This document shows positions 50,379 through 57,427 of a stretch of 60,899 nt of DNA, one piece after another. This DNA is from a virus. Positions within the stretch are counted from its first letter, which is position 1, and every line of letters begins with the position of its first letter. The notes beneath the pieces were generated by a model, which worked only from the letters and a program-made list of their open reading frames with translations, had not been told where the DNA came from and did no database searches. The translations under genes and the position numbers were made by a program. The DNA lies in the IMG/VR virus record IMGVR_UViG_3300009164_002363, positions 1 through 60,899 of that record; one strand, given 5' to 3'.

Positions 50379-50700
50379 GCTCATCAAGCAGTAATAGCAA
50401 GCGCAAGCTAACATCGTGCGCCCGTATACCTGGATCTCGGATCGCAGGGAAGGAAACTCTAGCTGCTAAGAGTACTTAACCACCATCCTTAACAGGACGA
50501 GGATCGCAAAGCTGCCGCGGTTTGGTTATTTAAAGGAATTAAAGGCAAAAAGAGGGAGAAATACCCACGTTTGCATGTATGTTAGCGTATGCATGTAGGC
50601 CGCCGTCATATAAAGACACAGCTCGAGGTACCGGATGACCGCCTCTGTAATGCTGTAACGCTAGGTGATAAATGTGCAACTCAGATAATGTTGAATTTAT
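50379..50700 (+). ncRNA. Candidate structured non-coding RNA region (strand uncertain)
   Basis: No gene-sized frame occupies this stretch. Its base composition stands out: 66 of 120 bases in 50401-50520 are G or C (55%) and 33 of 60 in 50581-50640, in an otherwise AT-rich genome. Possible helices include GCGCA (50401-50405) with TGCGC (50417-50421), ACTCT with AGAGT around a loop near 50457-50473, and AGGC plus GTCAT at 50597-50610 with ATGAC plus GCCT at 50635-50644. The octamer GGATCGCA occurs twice (50448-50456 region and 50501-50508). I found no tRNA, tmRNA or RNase P signature. The strand and ends are not defined. Confidence 0.45.
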
Positions 50701-50849: not shown

Positions 50850-51806
50850 ATGAAAGTATACGACATTATCAGTGAGGCAACACCTCAATATACACCAGGA
50901 GCTCTGGCAAGAAGAAATGCTGCAAGAACACAGACACGTGTTGCACCATCTCAAACAGCGACTCCTACTGCTACACCTGCAAAAACTAGTGGCCCGTCTG
51001 ATCTTCGTAATCAAAGAACTGCTCAGGCTGCGGAACTACGTAGGCAGGGTGGACCTAAATCGTTTCGAAAAGCTGGTGATATAATAAAAAAACATCATGA
51101 GATATGGAAAACAGGTAACGGTGAGGCAGCAAAAGCAGTAGAAAAATCTTTCTACGCTAAACTTGGTACTAGTACTGTATGGTTTCTTAAAGCCTTAGGT
51201 TTTGTATCTGCAGCTGGTGAGTTATGGGTCGACCTCGGCGGCTTAGAAGAACTTTATAATAATAAAGAAATTACTAAAGAAGACTACGAAGCAGAGAGAG
51301 AGTTTGCATTTGGTGTATTTGAAGCGCAAATACTTGTACCAATGATAGCTAGAGCACTAGCAAATAGTCGAATAGTATTAATGATAATTCGCGGTATTAA
51401 AAACATAGTACTTGGTGCCGGCGCAATTGCAGGTGTTACAACTGGGGGAGTAGTATCAGCCGCATCAATTGCTGCTATGATTGCTACTGAAGCTGGCATC
51501 ACTGCATTACAGATGTGGATAGGTAGTGATCAAGGTAAAGATTATATTGCCAGCGGAATAGGCAAATGGTTAAGATACCCCGGTGCAGTTGGTGAAAGCA
51601 TTTGGAACTGGTTAATGAATGGATTTAAAATAAGTACATTCTATGCAGATGCAGAAAAGAAACAAGGCAAGTTTCAAAATCAGAAAGCTCTTAAAGCTGC
51701 CACAACACCTCAAGAAAAACAAGCGGCACAACAGGCAATTGCCGCTGCTGACGCAGACGCAGACGATGAAGCATCTCGAGCCCGTGGCAGAAAAGATTTA
51801 AAGTAA
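50850..51806 (+). CDS. Membrane-associated phage protein with N-terminal MK-x-YDII-SEA signature
   Basis: 318 residues. It begins MKVYDIISEATP, an N-terminal pattern (MK/MR plus two hydrophobic residues, II-x-E) seen on several structural-type proteins of marine T4-like phages; another gene here, at 59169, starts similarly (MILRELFYAD). Residues 15-50 form a Pro/Thr/Gln-rich linker, 60-150 are helical, and 175-225 are hydrophobic (IVLMIIRGIKNIVLGAGAIAG, then VVSAASIAAMIATEAGI), probably membrane helices. The C-terminus is Ala/Asp-rich. It may be a virion or host-membrane protein. It ends nine bases into the convergent frame of the gp26 extension. Function unknown. Confidence 0.62.
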   Translation: MKVYDIISEATPQYTPGALARRNAARTQTRVAPSQTATPTATPAKTSGPSDLRNQRTAQAAELRRQGGPKSFRKAGDIIKKHHEIWKTGNGEAAKAVEKSFYAKLGTSTVWFLKALGFVSAAGELWVDLGGLEELYNNKEITKEDYEAEREFAFGVFEAQILVPMIARALANSRIVLMIIRGIKNIVLGAGAIAGVTTGGVVSAASIAAMIATEAGITALQMWIGSDQGKDYIASGIGKWLRYPGAVGESIWNWLMNGFKISTFYADAEKKQGKFQNQKALKAATTPQEKQAAQQAIAAADADADDEASRARGRKDLK

Positions 51807-52034
51807 CGGCATACCACTTTTCTTAGTGGCTTCTATGTTTTCTTTGATAAGAGAGCTCATAATATTCCTATCTTCATAGGAATACAAATGAAATAAGTCT
51901 TGACTGGTCACTCCGCCACGCATGTACCAACTTATTTTAAATATCTCTTCCTTAACCTCAGCTGCCTGACGATCAAATGTCTTTAAAAAGTCTTCAAGGT
52001 CAGAGTGTTCGACATAGCCTAGGCGGTTACGAAA
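51798..52034 (-). CDS. Start-less frame, predicted -1 frameshift extension of gp26
   Basis: The frame is open for 79 codons, ending in a normal stop, and has a convincing protein-like sequence: RNRLGYVEHSDLEDFLKTFD, then RQAAEVKEEIFKISWYMRGG, then VTSQDLFHLYSYEDRNIMSS and LIKENIEATKKSGMPLL. It contains no ATG, GTG or TTG before its internal Met near residue 37, so it cannot start on its own. It lies in the -1 frame relative to gp26 and overlaps gp26's last codons exactly at a slippery run. I therefore read it as a carboxy-terminal extension produced by a programmed -1 shift, giving a gp26 fusion. Sizes: 276 residues normally, about 350 shifted. This resembles tail-assembly chaperone pairs such as lambda gpG/gpGT. 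Not verified experimentally. Confidence 0.75.
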   Translation of the reverse strand, partial: FRNRLGYVEHSDLEDFLKTFDRQAAEVKEEIFKISWYMRGGVTSQDLFHLYSYEDRNIMSSLIKENIEATKKSGMPLL

Positions 52035-52849
52035 AAATTTGATTGGTCCAAATTAACAGTCACAGCATCTTCAGTACCACACGTAGCACATTTGATCTGA
52101 GATTTAGGCATAGTCCATTTTTCTTTATTTTCTTCTAGCTTTTTCTTAATAGCAGCATACAACTCTCTATCGCTATTTTTAACCCATTCAACAATAAATT
52201 CTTTTTCATTAACAATTCCGTCTGGAACTTGAACACTGTCAATGCTGTTGATAAACAGTTGAGTTTGTACATCTGCTAGATTTTTATACACTAGATCAAC
52301 TTGCACTTGTTGATCTTGCTCGTTTTCCATAGTGCTAACTTGTGCCAACATCTTTTGTAATTTAAAATTTTCTATGTTAATTTCTGTAAGTTCTTTATAA
52401 CTTAGTGGACGCAGAGTAACTATTAGTTCACCTACTTGAATTTTATTATCAAATGTTAAACTGCTGTAGTATTCTAAGAATGTTCGCAAGTCAATATCAA
52501 ATTCATTTTCTGTTCCGCAGTTATTACACGTATGTCTAATACCTAGCAATTCACCAAACGTAGCAATTCTAATAGCAGTAACAATACTATCTACGTCTAG
52601 AGTGGGCATCTTACTAGCGTCTTTGATAAACGGACAACAACTTTCAATAACTTTAACTGTTGCTTCACCAGTAAACAATGCGTCTGGAGTCTTGTACATG
52701 ATTTCATCCATGCCGTTCATACCAAAGATTGGTACATTGTTATAGTCACCGTGAAACGCACCTTCTTCATAGTGTAATCCTTTGCTGGGCAAAGAGATGT
52801 AGATTTTAGGCTGGCGATAGTACTTCTGTAGAGGGTTTAGTGGGTTCAT
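52019..52849 (-). CDS. 26: Baseplate hub assembly protein gp26
   Basis: gp26 belongs to the T4 baseplate protein family needed for hub assembly. 276 residues, longer than T4 gp26 (208). Seen: NPLQKYYRQPKIYISLPSKG at 2-25 in part, GMNGMDEIMYKTPDALF, then IVTAIRIATFGELLGIRHTCNNCG and KCATCG, giving two CxxC pairs, probably a zinc site (C-x2-C in TCNNCGTEN near 108-112 and ATCG near the end). The gene faces the tape measure gene, with back-to-back late-type elements between. The end of the gene overlaps a slippery run and the -1 frame described separately; without the shift the protein ends FFVTA. Confidence 0.82.
   Translation of the reverse strand: MNPLNPLQKYYRQPKIYISLPSKGLHYEEGAFHGDYNNVPIFGMNGMDEIMYKTPDALFTGEATVKVIESCCPFIKDASKMPTLDVDSIVTAIRIATFGELLGIRHTCNNCGTENEFDIDLRTFLEYYSSLTFDNKIQVGELIVTLRPLSYKELTEINIENFKLQKMLAQVSTMENEQDQQVQVDLVYKNLADVQTQLFINSIDSVQVPDGIVNEKEFIVEWVKNSDRELYAAIKKKLEENKEKWTMPKSQIKCATCGTEDAVTVNLDQSNFFVTA
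52034..52040 (-). other. Slippery heptamer A AAT TTT for predicted -1 frameshift
   Basis: Read on the minus strand in gp26 codons, TCA AAT TTT TTC contains A AAT TTT (52040-52034) and T TTT TTC (52037-52031), both of the X XXY YYZ form. The gp26 stop follows 3 codons after TTC. GCCTAGGC (52024-52017), a small palindrome around the stop, lies a few bases downstream and could help. Confidence 0.65.
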
Positions 52850-52912: not shown

Positions 52913-55900
52913 ATGTCAATGTCTAAACAAGAACTAGTAGATGCCCTTAAAGAAGCAAGCCGAGCCGGCTATTTTGGAGGCATGGGCGGCGGTGGCGGTG
53001 GCTCTGGTGGCGGCGGTGGCTCTGGTGGCGGTGGAGGCAGTTCAGGCGCCGGACAGTTTGGTAAAGAATTAGGTGCTGCTGGAGATGCCGTTAAAGGATT
53101 AGGCAATGCAGCTCTAGGAGTTGGATCAAAAATTGCTGAGGGTGGTGCAAAATTAGGAGATGTAACTCAGGCATTGTCAGCTGGGTTTTCTGGACTAGGA
53201 GCAAGTGGGTCTGTTCTTGGAGCGTCTCTTGACAAAGGCGCCAAAGCCTTAAACTCACTTGGTCAAAATATTGATCAAAATATTGATACTTGGAGAAAAC
53301 TATCCGACACTGGTTTATCGTTTGGTAACGATATAATGGCTATGAAGGATCAAGCAAGTGCTGCTAGGATGAGCATTGCTGAGATGTCCGAAGTAATGCA
53401 GAAGAATAATTCTTCTATGTTAGGGTTTGGGGCAACTAGTGCTGAAGGCGCTAAAAAGTTCTCTAAAATGGCCGATACGTTTTTTACTAGCGGACTAGGT
53501 GAACAACTACGTGGTATGGGATATACTACAAAAGAACTTAATGATGTTCTAGCAGTTAGTATATCAGGATCAAAACTTAAAGACTTAAAAGACAAAGACG
53601 GACAAGACCGATCTCTTAAAGCCGCAGCAAGCCTAGCTACTGAAATGGATGCAGTAGCTAAGATAACAGGACAAAGTAAACAAGAACAACTTGATGAGTT
53701 AAGACGTAAAGCAACCGACGGACAACGTATGGCTGCTATTGATGAAGCTATAGCCAAAGGTGGCGTTGGCGCAAAAGAAGCGTTTGATGCAATCAGTGCT
53801 AATGGTAAGTTGATGGGTCCGCAGTTTCAGAAACTTGCAGAAGATATGGCTTCTATGGGACGCCCGTCAGAAGGTATGGAAGCAGCCTACGGACTACTAA
53901 GTTCTGATGCTAAGAAATTAATGAGTGAAGCAGGCGAAGCTGCTCGTAGCGGTGACAGAGAACGTGCTGCAATGCTGACAAAACAAGCGGCTGCTGAGCA
54001 AGCCGCTTTTCAAAACACTAGTCAATATCGAACAATGGCTGCTCAAGCAGGCATTAAAGAAACACAAGAAAGTTATGCACAAGGTGCTAAGTTTAGAAAT
54101 GCTCTTGCAGATGCAGGAGGCAATATTAAAAATGTAGAAGCTTCAATGAAAAAACTTGACGATCAAGTTAAATCAGAACAACAAGCTGGAGGCAAAGATG
54201 ATCCAAATGCAACTGCAGGTGCCGGCATTACTAGATTTGCAGTTGATCTTGAAAGCCGAGGACGTGACTTAACCAAAGTACTAAACGATCAAGTTATTCA
54301 ACCGTTAGCAAAAGATATTGCACCATCAATTGTTAAAATGAGTAAAGATCTAAAATTAGGTTCATCGACAGTTGTGCAAACTGAAATTGGTGACCCAATG
54401 AAAAAAGGATACGATAAATCTAGAATTGATCGTACTGTAAAAGAAGAAGCAGATAAATCAGGCGGTGCAATGTCTGATAAATCGCCATTGCATAAAGATC
54501 TAGTTGAATTTAATAAGTTAATTAACGGAAATCAAAAGCAATCTGACACAACTCTCAAAGTGCTTGAAAAGATGGCAGCTGATCAATCTAAGGCAACTGG
54601 TAAAACTGTAACTGCTGAAGATGTAGCTAAGAACGCTACTAACACACCCGGTGCAATGGCGGATATTGTTAAACAAATTAAAGCAGCATTGCCGGCAGAT
54701 GCACAGCTTGATAAAACAGAAGCTGAGAAAACAAAGAAAGATAAGATAACTCATGTATCTGGAGATAAAGCAAAACCGGCTGGCGAATCATTAGGAGCTA
54801 TGGTTGAATTTGCAGGAGGATTGTTTAGGGGAACTCCGGGCAAGGTTGAAATAGTTAACGGTGGTGCTGCTGCACCAGTACCTAAACGTGAAAGCGGTAG
54901 TTTAGATAAAGCCGGTAAAATGTTTGAAGATTGGGGTAAAGGTACTATGGTAGAATTACACGGTATGGAAAGTGTAATGCGACCACAAGACGTATCTAAA
55001 GTCATTGAATCTGCAATGGCCGGTGTAAGAAAAACTATGCCAAAAGTAGATATGGCAGGTGCTGGTGCCAAGTTAGAAATGCCCAAGTTAGAAATGCCCA
55101 AGTTAGAAATGCCCAAGTTAGAAATGCCCAAGTTAGAAATGCCCAAGTTAGAAATGCCTAAATTAGATACTGCTATGGGTAAAGATAAAGAGTTTGCAGC
55201 TCTAGCAGCTGAAATAAGCAAAATGGGCAAAGCAGATATGTCCAAGTTAGATTTGTCTAGTATGACTAAATCAATTAGCACTAGTATTAGTTCAGTAAGT
55301 GGCGGCGGATCTACTACCACTAAACAAGTTCAAAATGACAGCAGTAAGGCTGCTGAAAAAGAATTAGCTTCTGTTAGAGAACAGATGCAAGCTGAAAAGA
55401 TGGCTCTTAGAGAAAAGTTAAAAGCTCAAATAGGTGACGGCAGCAAACTAGGTGGCAATGCAGTTGCTAAAGAAATGCGAGTTGGAGAAGAAGGTAAAGG
55501 AATAGCTGAAAAGTATAAAGCTATAATGGAGCCTTTACAAAAACAAATTGATGCTGGAATTAGTTGGGAAACTACTAAGAAAGCAGCCGCCATTGAAGAA
55601 ACTACTAAGATGGTTAGTGAACAGGTATCTATTACTAAAACTAGTAACAGTACGCTTGCTGACATGTATAAAGATGACAGCAAATCTAAACTAGATCTTG
55701 CTAAGAAAACTAATGCTGATGCATTTAAAGAAGCAGAACTAGCAAAGAGTGTTATTGGTACTTCAGTAAAAGGTATGAGCGACAATATGATTGAATCTAT
55801 GATACCAAAAGGTGCAAAGATTGAAGATTATTACATCGACATGAATGACAAGATACAGAGTAATTCAGCTGACTTTGTTGCAAACATGGAGAAAAATGCC

Positions 55901-57427
55901 AAAGCGTCTACCAGTGTAATTGAAACATATTCAACTACTATATCATCATCTAGTAAAAAAATGGCAGGTGATATTGCTGGCGCATTACCTGGCGCTACAA
56001 CTAAAACACCGGCAGCACCGGCAACCACTCCTGCGCCAATGAGTATGGCATCAATGTCTGTAGGTATGGATAGAGCCATGCTTAAAACAGACGATCAAAA
56101 GAAAGTATTTGATGAGATAATGACTCTCAACGACACAGCTTCAAAGGCAAAAAAATTATCGTTGCAAGAAGAAATGATGGCAGCAACTGCAACAAATAGA
56201 GCCACATCTGAAGCTATTGATCTAATGGAAGAAAAATTAGATGCTGAGGGTAAAGGGTTTAAAGACCTTACAGGCAAACAAAAAGAAGAATACGAAGCTC
56301 TTAGAAAACAACAAAATGAATCTTTTAATGCATCTGACAAAGCAAGAGAAGCAATCAAAGCTGTTGACCGTGCAGAACAAGCTAAACAAAACTTGCAAAA
56401 AATGGGCTACGATGTAGTAGTCAAACAAGAAGAAGATAAAACAAAGATTATTGAAGCTTCTAGTGAAAAGATTAAATCAGATATAGCTGATGCACTGCCT
56501 GTAAAAGAAGTAGCGGCACAACAACAAGAATTTAAATCACAGTTTACAGAGAGCCAACAAAAGATTATTGATGACTATAAAGGCTACAGCGAAGAAAATC
56601 GTTCCTTCCATGCACAAGCAATGGAATCGGGTATTAAAGAAGATACTAAAACTGCAGAGAAAATTGGCAATCGAATTGCCAAAATGAAGGCAGATATTGG
56701 TGATAGACAAGCTACTAAAGAAGAAGAAGCTGCACTTGAAAATGAAACATTGAATAAAGCAATGTTTGAAAAGCAAGTAGAAAAGAAAAAAGAAATGCTA
56801 GATGTTATGCAAAATCTAGGCGAATACAGTGCTAAACGTGAATTAGAACTTAAACAAAAAGCAGCAGACGAAGCAAAAACAGTAGCAATTGAAGATAAAA
56901 AAACTGATGCAATTACTGCAGAACTACCAGTTAATGGTGTAGCAATGGGTCCTCAACCCGAAGTAAGTGACCAAGAGGCAAAACAGAAAGTAGCAGACGA
57001 AGCTAAATCAGAATTAGCAAGAGAAAGTCGAAGAAGCACCCCACAGGATGCACCAAAAAGCAAAGCTATGAGCATATCAGATATGATGTCTGGCGGCATG
57101 ACCATGGGCGCAAATGGTATGCCAATTATGAAGAAAATTGATACTGCTAAAAATAGTATACCAGCTAAACCTGCAGATGCAGATGCAGATAGAGAAAATG
57201 CAAAATTCAAAAGACAAGCAGAAGAGAAAAAAGCAGAAGCTGCTAAAATAGCTGAGAAAAAGCCCGATGCCAAAGCAGCAACTAAAGAATCTACTCTCTC
57301 TGACGTGGTATCGGCGCTGAATACGTTAAATAAACAGATGGGCCAACTAATAGCAGTTAGTGAAGAAGGCCACAAATCTACAACCAAAGCTGCGAAGAGT
57401 GGTGCTAGTAACATATACGCGAGATAA
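52913..57427 (+). CDS. Probable tail tape measure protein, 1504 residues
   Basis: Long Ala/Lys/Met-rich, mainly helical protein directly before the portal gene. The N-terminus has a Gly-rich stretch at about 22-46 (runs of five glycines divided by Ser), then alternating Gly and Ala helices and a compact region with WRKLSDTGLSFGNDIMAMKDQASAARMS, followed by long coiled-coil segments (residues about 780-1400) and a C-terminal heptad region. A six-copy pentapeptide KLEMP array occupies residues 720-749. The composition and length fit a tape measure protein such as T4 gp29 (590 residues), which also sets tail length. At about 0.15 nm per residue this would suggest a tail near 225 nm, an inference. 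It could also be an internal virion protein. Confidence 0.6.
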   Translation: MSMSKQELVDALKEASRAGYFGGMGGGGGGSGGGGGSGGGGGSSGAGQFGKELGAAGDAVKGLGNAALGVGSKIAEGGAKLGDVTQALSAGFSGLGASGSVLGASLDKGAKALNSLGQNIDQNIDTWRKLSDTGLSFGNDIMAMKDQASAARMSIAEMSEVMQKNNSSMLGFGATSAEGAKKFSKMADTFFTSGLGEQLRGMGYTTKELNDVLAVSISGSKLKDLKDKDGQDRSLKAAASLATEMDAVAKITGQSKQEQLDELRRKATDGQRMAAIDEAIAKGGVGAKEAFDAISANGKLMGPQFQKLAEDMASMGRPSEGMEAAYGLLSSDAKKLMSEAGEAARSGDRERAAMLTKQAAAEQAAFQNTSQYRTMAAQAGIKETQESYAQGAKFRNALADAGGNIKNVEASMKKLDDQVKSEQQAGGKDDPNATAGAGITRFAVDLESRGRDLTKVLNDQVIQPLAKDIAPSIVKMSKDLKLGSSTVVQTEIGDPMKKGYDKSRIDRTVKEEADKSGGAMSDKSPLHKDLVEFNKLINGNQKQSDTTLKVLEKMAADQSKATGKTVTAEDVAKNATNTPGAMADIVKQIKAALPADAQLDKTEAEKTKKDKITHVSGDKAKPAGESLGAMVEFAGGLFRGTPGKVEIVNGGAAAPVPKRESGSLDKAGKMFEDWGKGTMVELHGMESVMRPQDVSKVIESAMAGVRKTMPKVDMAGAGAKLEMPKLEMPKLEMPKLEMPKLEMPKLEMPKLDTAMGKDKEFAALAAEISKMGKADMSKLDLSSMTKSISTSISSVSGGGSTTTKQVQNDSSKAAEKELASVREQMQAEKMALREKLKAQIGDGSKLGGNAVAKEMRVGEEGKGIAEKYKAIMEPLQKQIDAGISWETTKKAAAIEETTKMVSEQVSITKTSNSTLADMYKDDSKSKLDLAKKTNADAFKEAELAKSVIGTSVKGMSDNMIESMIPKGAKIEDYYIDMNDKIQSNSADFVANMEKNAKASTSVIETYSTTISSSSKKMAGDIAGALPGATTKTPAAPATTPAPMSMASMSVGMDRAMLKTDDQKKVFDEIMTLNDTASKAKKLSLQEEMMAATATNRATSEAIDLMEEKLDAEGKGFKDLTGKQKEEYEALRKQQNESFNASDKAREAIKAVDRAEQAKQNLQKMGYDVVVKQEEDKTKIIEASSEKIKSDIADALPVKEVAAQQQEFKSQFTESQQKIIDDYKGYSEENRSFHAQAMESGIKEDTKTAEKIGNRIAKMKADIGDRQATKEEEAALENETLNKAMFEKQVEKKKEMLDVMQNLGEYSAKRELELKQKAADEAKTVAIEDKKTDAITAELPVNGVAMGPQPEVSDQEAKQKVADEAKSELARESRRSTPQDAPKSKAMSISDMMSGGMTMGANGMPIMKKIDTAKNSIPAKPADADADRENAKFKRQAEEKKAEAAKIAEKKPDAKAATKESTLSDVVSALNTLNKQMGQLIAVSEEGHKSTTKAAKSGASNIYAR
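55070..55159 (+). repeat. Six-copy 15-base repeat encoding KLEMP
   Basis: Unit AAGTTAGAAATGCCC, five identical copies plus a last copy ending CCT, all in frame, followed by a decayed half-unit (KLDT). Codons are identical between copies, so the array looks recent and unstable. A change by one copy adds or removes five residues without a frameshift. It lies in the putative tape measure gene. Confidence 0.95.

Follow-up and report, generated by a model that had tools for sequence, protein, structure and literature searches.

A conserved slippery heptamer in gp26 points to short and long tail-assembly chaperone forms in relatives of phage T4

The window, meaning the whole stretch of viral DNA that was analysed, is a 60.9-kb virus contig (60,899 nucleotides). 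On its minus strand it carries a gp26 gene whose 3' end overlaps a second open frame, and a large open reading frame diverges from this gene on the plus strand.

52019-52849 (minus strand): gp26 homologue of 276 residues, the putative short chaperone form (TAC-N); PF12322 and phrog_150; four invariant cysteines (C108, C111, C254 and C257) and an invariant Phe-Phe at the slip site
52031-52037 (minus strand): putative slippery heptamer T_TTT_TTC in the gp26 frame, conserved across loci
51801-52037 (minus strand): extension in the -1 frame, 79 residues (FFRNRLGYVEHSDL...WYMRGG...MPLL), the putative TAC-C; stop at 51800-51798; predicted to be all-helical, with a mean pLDDT of 91
52913-57427 (plus strand): divergent open reading frame of 1504 residues, a tape measure candidate with a partial match to the tail length tape measure family phrog_33360 (E 8e-8)

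The gp26 reading frame runs from 52849 to 52019 and ends with the residues S N F F V T A and a stop, encoded as TCA AAT TTT TTC GTA ACC GCC TAG. Profile searches revealed that its product belongs to the T4 gp26 family, with 62.2 bits against PF12322 (T4_baseplate) at a curated cut-off of 24.5, a match to phrog_150, labelled 'baseplate hub' in PHROGs, and an hhalign probability of 99 against cyanophage gp26. The protein models well (mean pLDDT 92). The viral models closest to its predicted structure are gp26-type baseplate proteins, and no solved-structure tail-assembly chaperone, such as HK97 gp13 (2OB9), is among the listed Foldseek or VIA-align matches of the model. In the same neighbourhood, window positions 50396-50531 (plus strand) match the Rfam orphan Polynucleobacter-1 RNA (RF01718, 104 bits). 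At loci L062 and L068, and likewise in 15 of 15 IMG/VR relatives examined, this RNA is encoded on the strand opposite gp26, 1.2-1.6 kb downstream of it; it is absent from the three isolate loci tested (L001, L003 and L005). Given its recurrence near gp26, it looks like a conserved phage RNA.

An earlier note, made from the window's sequence, had claimed that gp26 is followed by a start-less frame in the -1 phase, and this was confirmed. The frame is uninterrupted from 52052 to 51801, which amounts to 84 codons, or 79 if counted from the slip codons, and holds no ATG, GTG or TTG until 51923, the Met within WYMRGG. The extension is thus a short C-terminal domain in the -1 frame with no usable start of its own. 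Likewise, the first ATG falls within the conserved WYMRGG in 82 of 95 loci of the window's clade. All 92 clade loci with equal extension length have an open -1 frame and stops in both other frames, and pairwise dN/dS among them has a median of 0.28 for the -1 frame and of 0.88 and 1.69 for the other two. Judged by these ratios, purifying selection acts on the extension in the window's clade, and does so in the -1 frame alone. The conserved -1 reading starts at the slip codons (FFR). Searching with the extension alone by tblastn recovered the homologous place in phages Atu_ph07 (4e-8) and Phosso (3e-5). The window extension matched no family in Pfam or PHROGs, and the fold search with its model returned no significant match; weak viral fold matches (E 3.6 to 9.8), among them small proteins of PAK_P1 and PaP1 and one 'baseplate hub assembly catalyst', are suggestive only.

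The expectation that annotation would miss the extension was borne out as well. None of the GenBank regions examined contains a joined gp26-extension coding sequence; the extension is either unannotated or entered as a small hypothetical or separate small gene, as in several jumbo phages and cyanophages, so that in these records it is missing or labelled as an unrelated small gene. From a single window alone, a sequencing error or the decayed 3' end of a longer gene could not be excluded as the origin of such a frame. More than 200 loci, complete-genome isolates among them, share this arrangement, and such conservation refutes an artefact, to which we assign a negligible probability.

At the junction of the two frames, the earlier note had named two heptamers, A_AAT_TTT and T_TTT_TTC. 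Both are present, but only the latter is conserved. The codon preceding Phe-Phe varies among loci (AAT, AGT, CAT, GAT, CGT, TCT, GCT or GGT), so A_AAT_TTT appears incidental and was rejected as the shift site. A tblastn search with gp26 matched 61 phage records, mainly from jumbo phages that share 24-30% identity with it. Eight of these phages, Atu_ph07, Munch, GAP32, 121Q, Phosso, RaK2, PA5oct and SCTP-2, carry TTTTTTC in the same phase at the end of gp26, and in all eight the -1 frame after gp26 stays open for about 70-80 codons. Across the whole survey, T_TTT_TTC occurs in the gp26 frame near the gene end at 211 of 215 gp26 loci, a few of which share one contig: 111 of 114 in the jumbo-type and window clades, IMG/VR relatives included, and 100 of 101 of the cyanophage type. 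The four others are Xanthomonas phage XacN1 and Stenotrophomonas phage RAS14, both with T_TTT_TTT, Pseudomonas phage Cygsa01, with no slip site, and a fragment (L215), which was excluded.

Clustering by sequence yielded 88 clusters, 86 of them evaluable. The pattern NNT-TTT-TT(C/T) is present in 86/86 (TTT TTC in 84, TTT TTT in 2), counts that are not independent trials because of shared ancestry. As controls, Phe-Phe pairs at other places in the same genes are written TTTTTC in 7 of 32 cases, and codons of the residues usual before Phe-Phe end in T in 31-71%. The synonymous sites of the heptamer are retained although the proteins have less than 30% identity to each other. Measured against these controls, the conservation of T_TTT_TTC far exceeds chance. 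Furthermore, the base 3' of the heptamer is nearly always G, which lets the gp26 residue vary (V, A, G or E) but makes the -1 frame residue nearly always Arg. The programmed -1 shift proposed in the earlier note is therefore backed by the slip site across loci and clusters and by the low dN/dS of the -1 frame, and the comparison with related genomes that it had called for found the conserved frame together with the slippery run in jumbo-type, window-clade and cyanophage-type loci. On this comparative evidence, we consider programmed -1 frameshifting highly probable.

In cyanophages and related phages, the gene annotated as gp51, 'baseplate hub assembly catalyst', is the -1 frame of gp26 behind T_TTT_TTC. 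An ATG at +2 from the gp26 stop gives it a start of its own, yet the slip site is retained. Since this ATG sits at the gp26 stop, separate initiation of gp51 is possible in cyanophages. In Cygsa01 (L034), which lacks the slip site, gp51 begins at an overlapping ATG, and on its sequence this phage is a natural unlinked variant. Such cases, together with the separate open reading frames in GenBank for cyanophages and several jumbo phages, speak for the extension being a small gene of its own, whose translation would begin past the gp26 stop by re-initiation or coupling, with the T run merely reflecting a conserved Phe-Phe. We regard that explanation as improbable, because most window-clade loci have no ATG ahead of WYMRGG (the 82 of 95 above), the conserved reading begins at FFR rather than downstream, and every evaluable cluster keeps the heptamer's synonymous sites fixed. 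The homologues with a normal start for the extension, which the earlier note would count as contrary evidence, do exist in cyanophages, yet these keep the slip site anyway, and the window's clade is mostly without such starts.

The relationship to T4 supports a pair of short and long products. The T4 gp26 gene ends with TTC TTT and lacks a slip site; gene 25, which comes next, starts at an ATG of its own. Residues 1-201 of T4 gp51 match PF12322 at 4e-52, and the C terminus matches phrog_634. The cyanophage extension was aligned to T4 gp51 200-243, at the C terminus, with an E-value of 1.7e-5, and the window-clade extension matches the cyanophage extension moderately (hhalign probability 64, E 6.5e-5). 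These matches indicate that T4 gp51 is a gp26 paralogue fused to the extension domain, that is, a long form in one frame, which T4 would thus encode as a separate gene (51); by sequence, it looks like a frozen long form. The suggestion that T4-type phages use frameshifting is supported for the relatives but not for T4 itself. Cyanophage gp51 has been described as only about 20% of the length of T4 gp51 and alike at the C terminus (Sullivan et al. 2010, PMC3037559). T4 gp26 and gp51 are classed as hub assembly chaperones, gp51 being required but absent from the particle (PMC3004832). The parts of the window pair are homologous to this genetically required pair, and the alignments strongly support gp26 and gp26-extension as a short and long pair homologous to T4 gp26/gp51. 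Of the earlier claim of a chaperone pair, the homology stands, and the tail-assembly role drawn from it is likely.

Candidate stimulators of the shift were found in two groups of relatives. In the sister subclade (L062-L114, 32 cluster representatives), an 11-bp hairpin begins 6 nt 3' of the heptamer, for example at L068 3301-3365, and in most members the gp26 stop codon sits within its 5' arm. In the alignment 96.9% of cells pair, and both sides change in five pairs, which is compensatory. None of 500 column shuffles attained the observed values, and resampling of synonymous codons gave 241 +/- 6 paired cells against the 341 observed (z = 16). The Arg codon of the 3' arm is AGG in 30/30, a codon very rare in the same gp26 genes (4 uses). 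Searching IMG/VR for the hairpin pattern with a free loop length gave at least 80 loci; among the matches listed, all share the identical 65-nt register, follow an open frame in the gp26 phase and form 9-11 of the 11 pairs. This recurrence is only partly independent, as many of the contigs are training ones.

In cyanophages (L033, L115-L194), a Shine-Dalgarno-like element of the TTGGAGGG type lies about 10 nt upstream of TTTTTTC, and in 9 of 11 representatives it falls below the 5th percentile of control positions. At about 25 nt from the gp51 ATG, it is too distant to serve as the gp51 ribosome site. A Shine-Dalgarno element stimulates the -1 shift in dnaX, and the cyanophage spacing is close to that of dnaX. 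By their coordinates, the hairpin and the Shine-Dalgarno-like element are located where ribosomal stimulators sit, and both seem to be candidate frameshift stimulators. Transcriptional rather than ribosomal slippage on the run of six or seven T would yield the same protein. Six bases are short for polymerase slippage; moreover, the heptamer keeps strictly to the in-frame XXXYYYZ phase and the relatives' signals occupy ribosomal stimulator positions, so we hold slippage of the polymerase to be very improbable.

The window's own site differs. No stable RNA structure was found near its slip site (z +0.3 to +0.4), the sister-clade hairpin model gave only a short, low-scoring match on the window (17.7 bits, 25 nt), and a Shine-Dalgarno-like element near the slip site is weak: its -3.0 kcal/mol does not drop under the 5th percentile of controls. 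Two features of the extension are constrained at the nucleotide level among close relatives and in the clade.

51894-51944 (minus strand): nucleotide-level constraint among close relatives, 17 invariant extension codons, 15 of them degenerate; gp26 has no such run longer than 6
52002-52004 (minus strand): Ser codon TCT within CTCTGA; TCT in 26 of 28 clade Ser codons at this site versus about 18% TCT usage among Ser codons

A run as long as the 15 invariant degenerate codons at 51944-51894 arose in 0 of 10,000 shuffles, and the 42-nt core of the block occurs in only 12 IMG/VR contigs, all of them surveyed gp26 loci. A hairpin can be drawn within the block; it was rejected, being no better than in shuffled sequence.

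Taken together, we propose that the tail-assembly chaperone of this phage has a short form, gp26 (TAC-N), and a long form, gp26-plus-extension (TAC-NC), a reading to which we assign a probability of about 0.88. In this model, the majority of ribosomes would stop at the TAG that closes gp26. When tRNA-Phe occupies UUU and UUC within U_UUU_UUC, a minority would slip back by one base, re-pair on UUU UUU, and then read CGN (Arg) and about 77 more residues, which belong to a helical C-terminal domain. If the pair works like lambda gpG/gpGT, the tape measure protein would be coated by the abundant short form, and the scarce long form would bring in tail tube subunits; both would then depart. The slip site, the -1 frame, the selection on it, the homology to T4 gp26 and gp51 and the candidate stimulators in relatives are read from sequence, whereas slippage itself, its rate and the chaperone role are inferred. 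The partial match at 52913-57427 (plus strand) provides a tape measure neighbour, a divergent gene rather than a downstream one; this open reading frame also contains tandem KLEMP repeats. On the wider history, we lean towards one ancient T_TTT_TTC kept across the T4 superfamily, jumbo phages included. Its stimulators may have been swapped between lineages (the sister-clade hairpin, the cyanophage Shine-Dalgarno-like element and the nucleotide constraint in the window's subclade), and T4 may have resolved the shift into two genes.

Vladimirov, Gautam and Davidson (Virology 566:9-15) reportedly found frameshifting conserved in several T4-like groups, T4 having separate genes 26 and 51. The core idea of chaperone frameshifting in T4-type phages was already proposed there (Vladimirov, Gautam and Davidson 2022) and is not new. 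The slip site is present in most of the gp26 genes surveyed in the T4 superfamily, in line with the 2022 proposal, which is thereby extended to jumbo phages. In the open-licence literature, we found no earlier report of the jumbo-phage extension, the sister-clade hairpin or the cyanophage Shine-Dalgarno-like element; the latter two are clean, testable stimulator candidates.

Among known systems, lambda gpG/gpGT resembles the window in having a short protein and a rare -1 extended form and in adjoining the tape measure gene; the lambda slip sequence is G_GGA_AAG, unlike T_TTT_TTC. P2 gpE/E+E' and the tail-assembly chaperone of Pakpunavirus (Adele) belong to contractile tails and, like the window, have a -1 shift at a T-rich site, although the slip sequence differs. 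The Adele paper (PMC12846349) names poly-T sequences as signals for the -1 shift in the TAC-N genes of T4-like phages and gives a conserved GTTTTT motif for the Adele chaperone. T4 is a named exception to this frameshifting in long-tailed phages (Atkins et al. 2016 review, PMC5009743). The T4-like chaperone genes 26/51 have the same gp26 family (PF12322) and the same C-terminal domain as the window pair, with two genes in T4 versus one gene and a putative shift in the window's clade. Finally, cyanophage gp51, like the window extension, occupies the -1 frame of gp26 behind T_TTT_TTC, whereas annotation treats it as a separate gene starting at an ATG of its own, and it has an upstream Shine-Dalgarno-like element, which the window is without.
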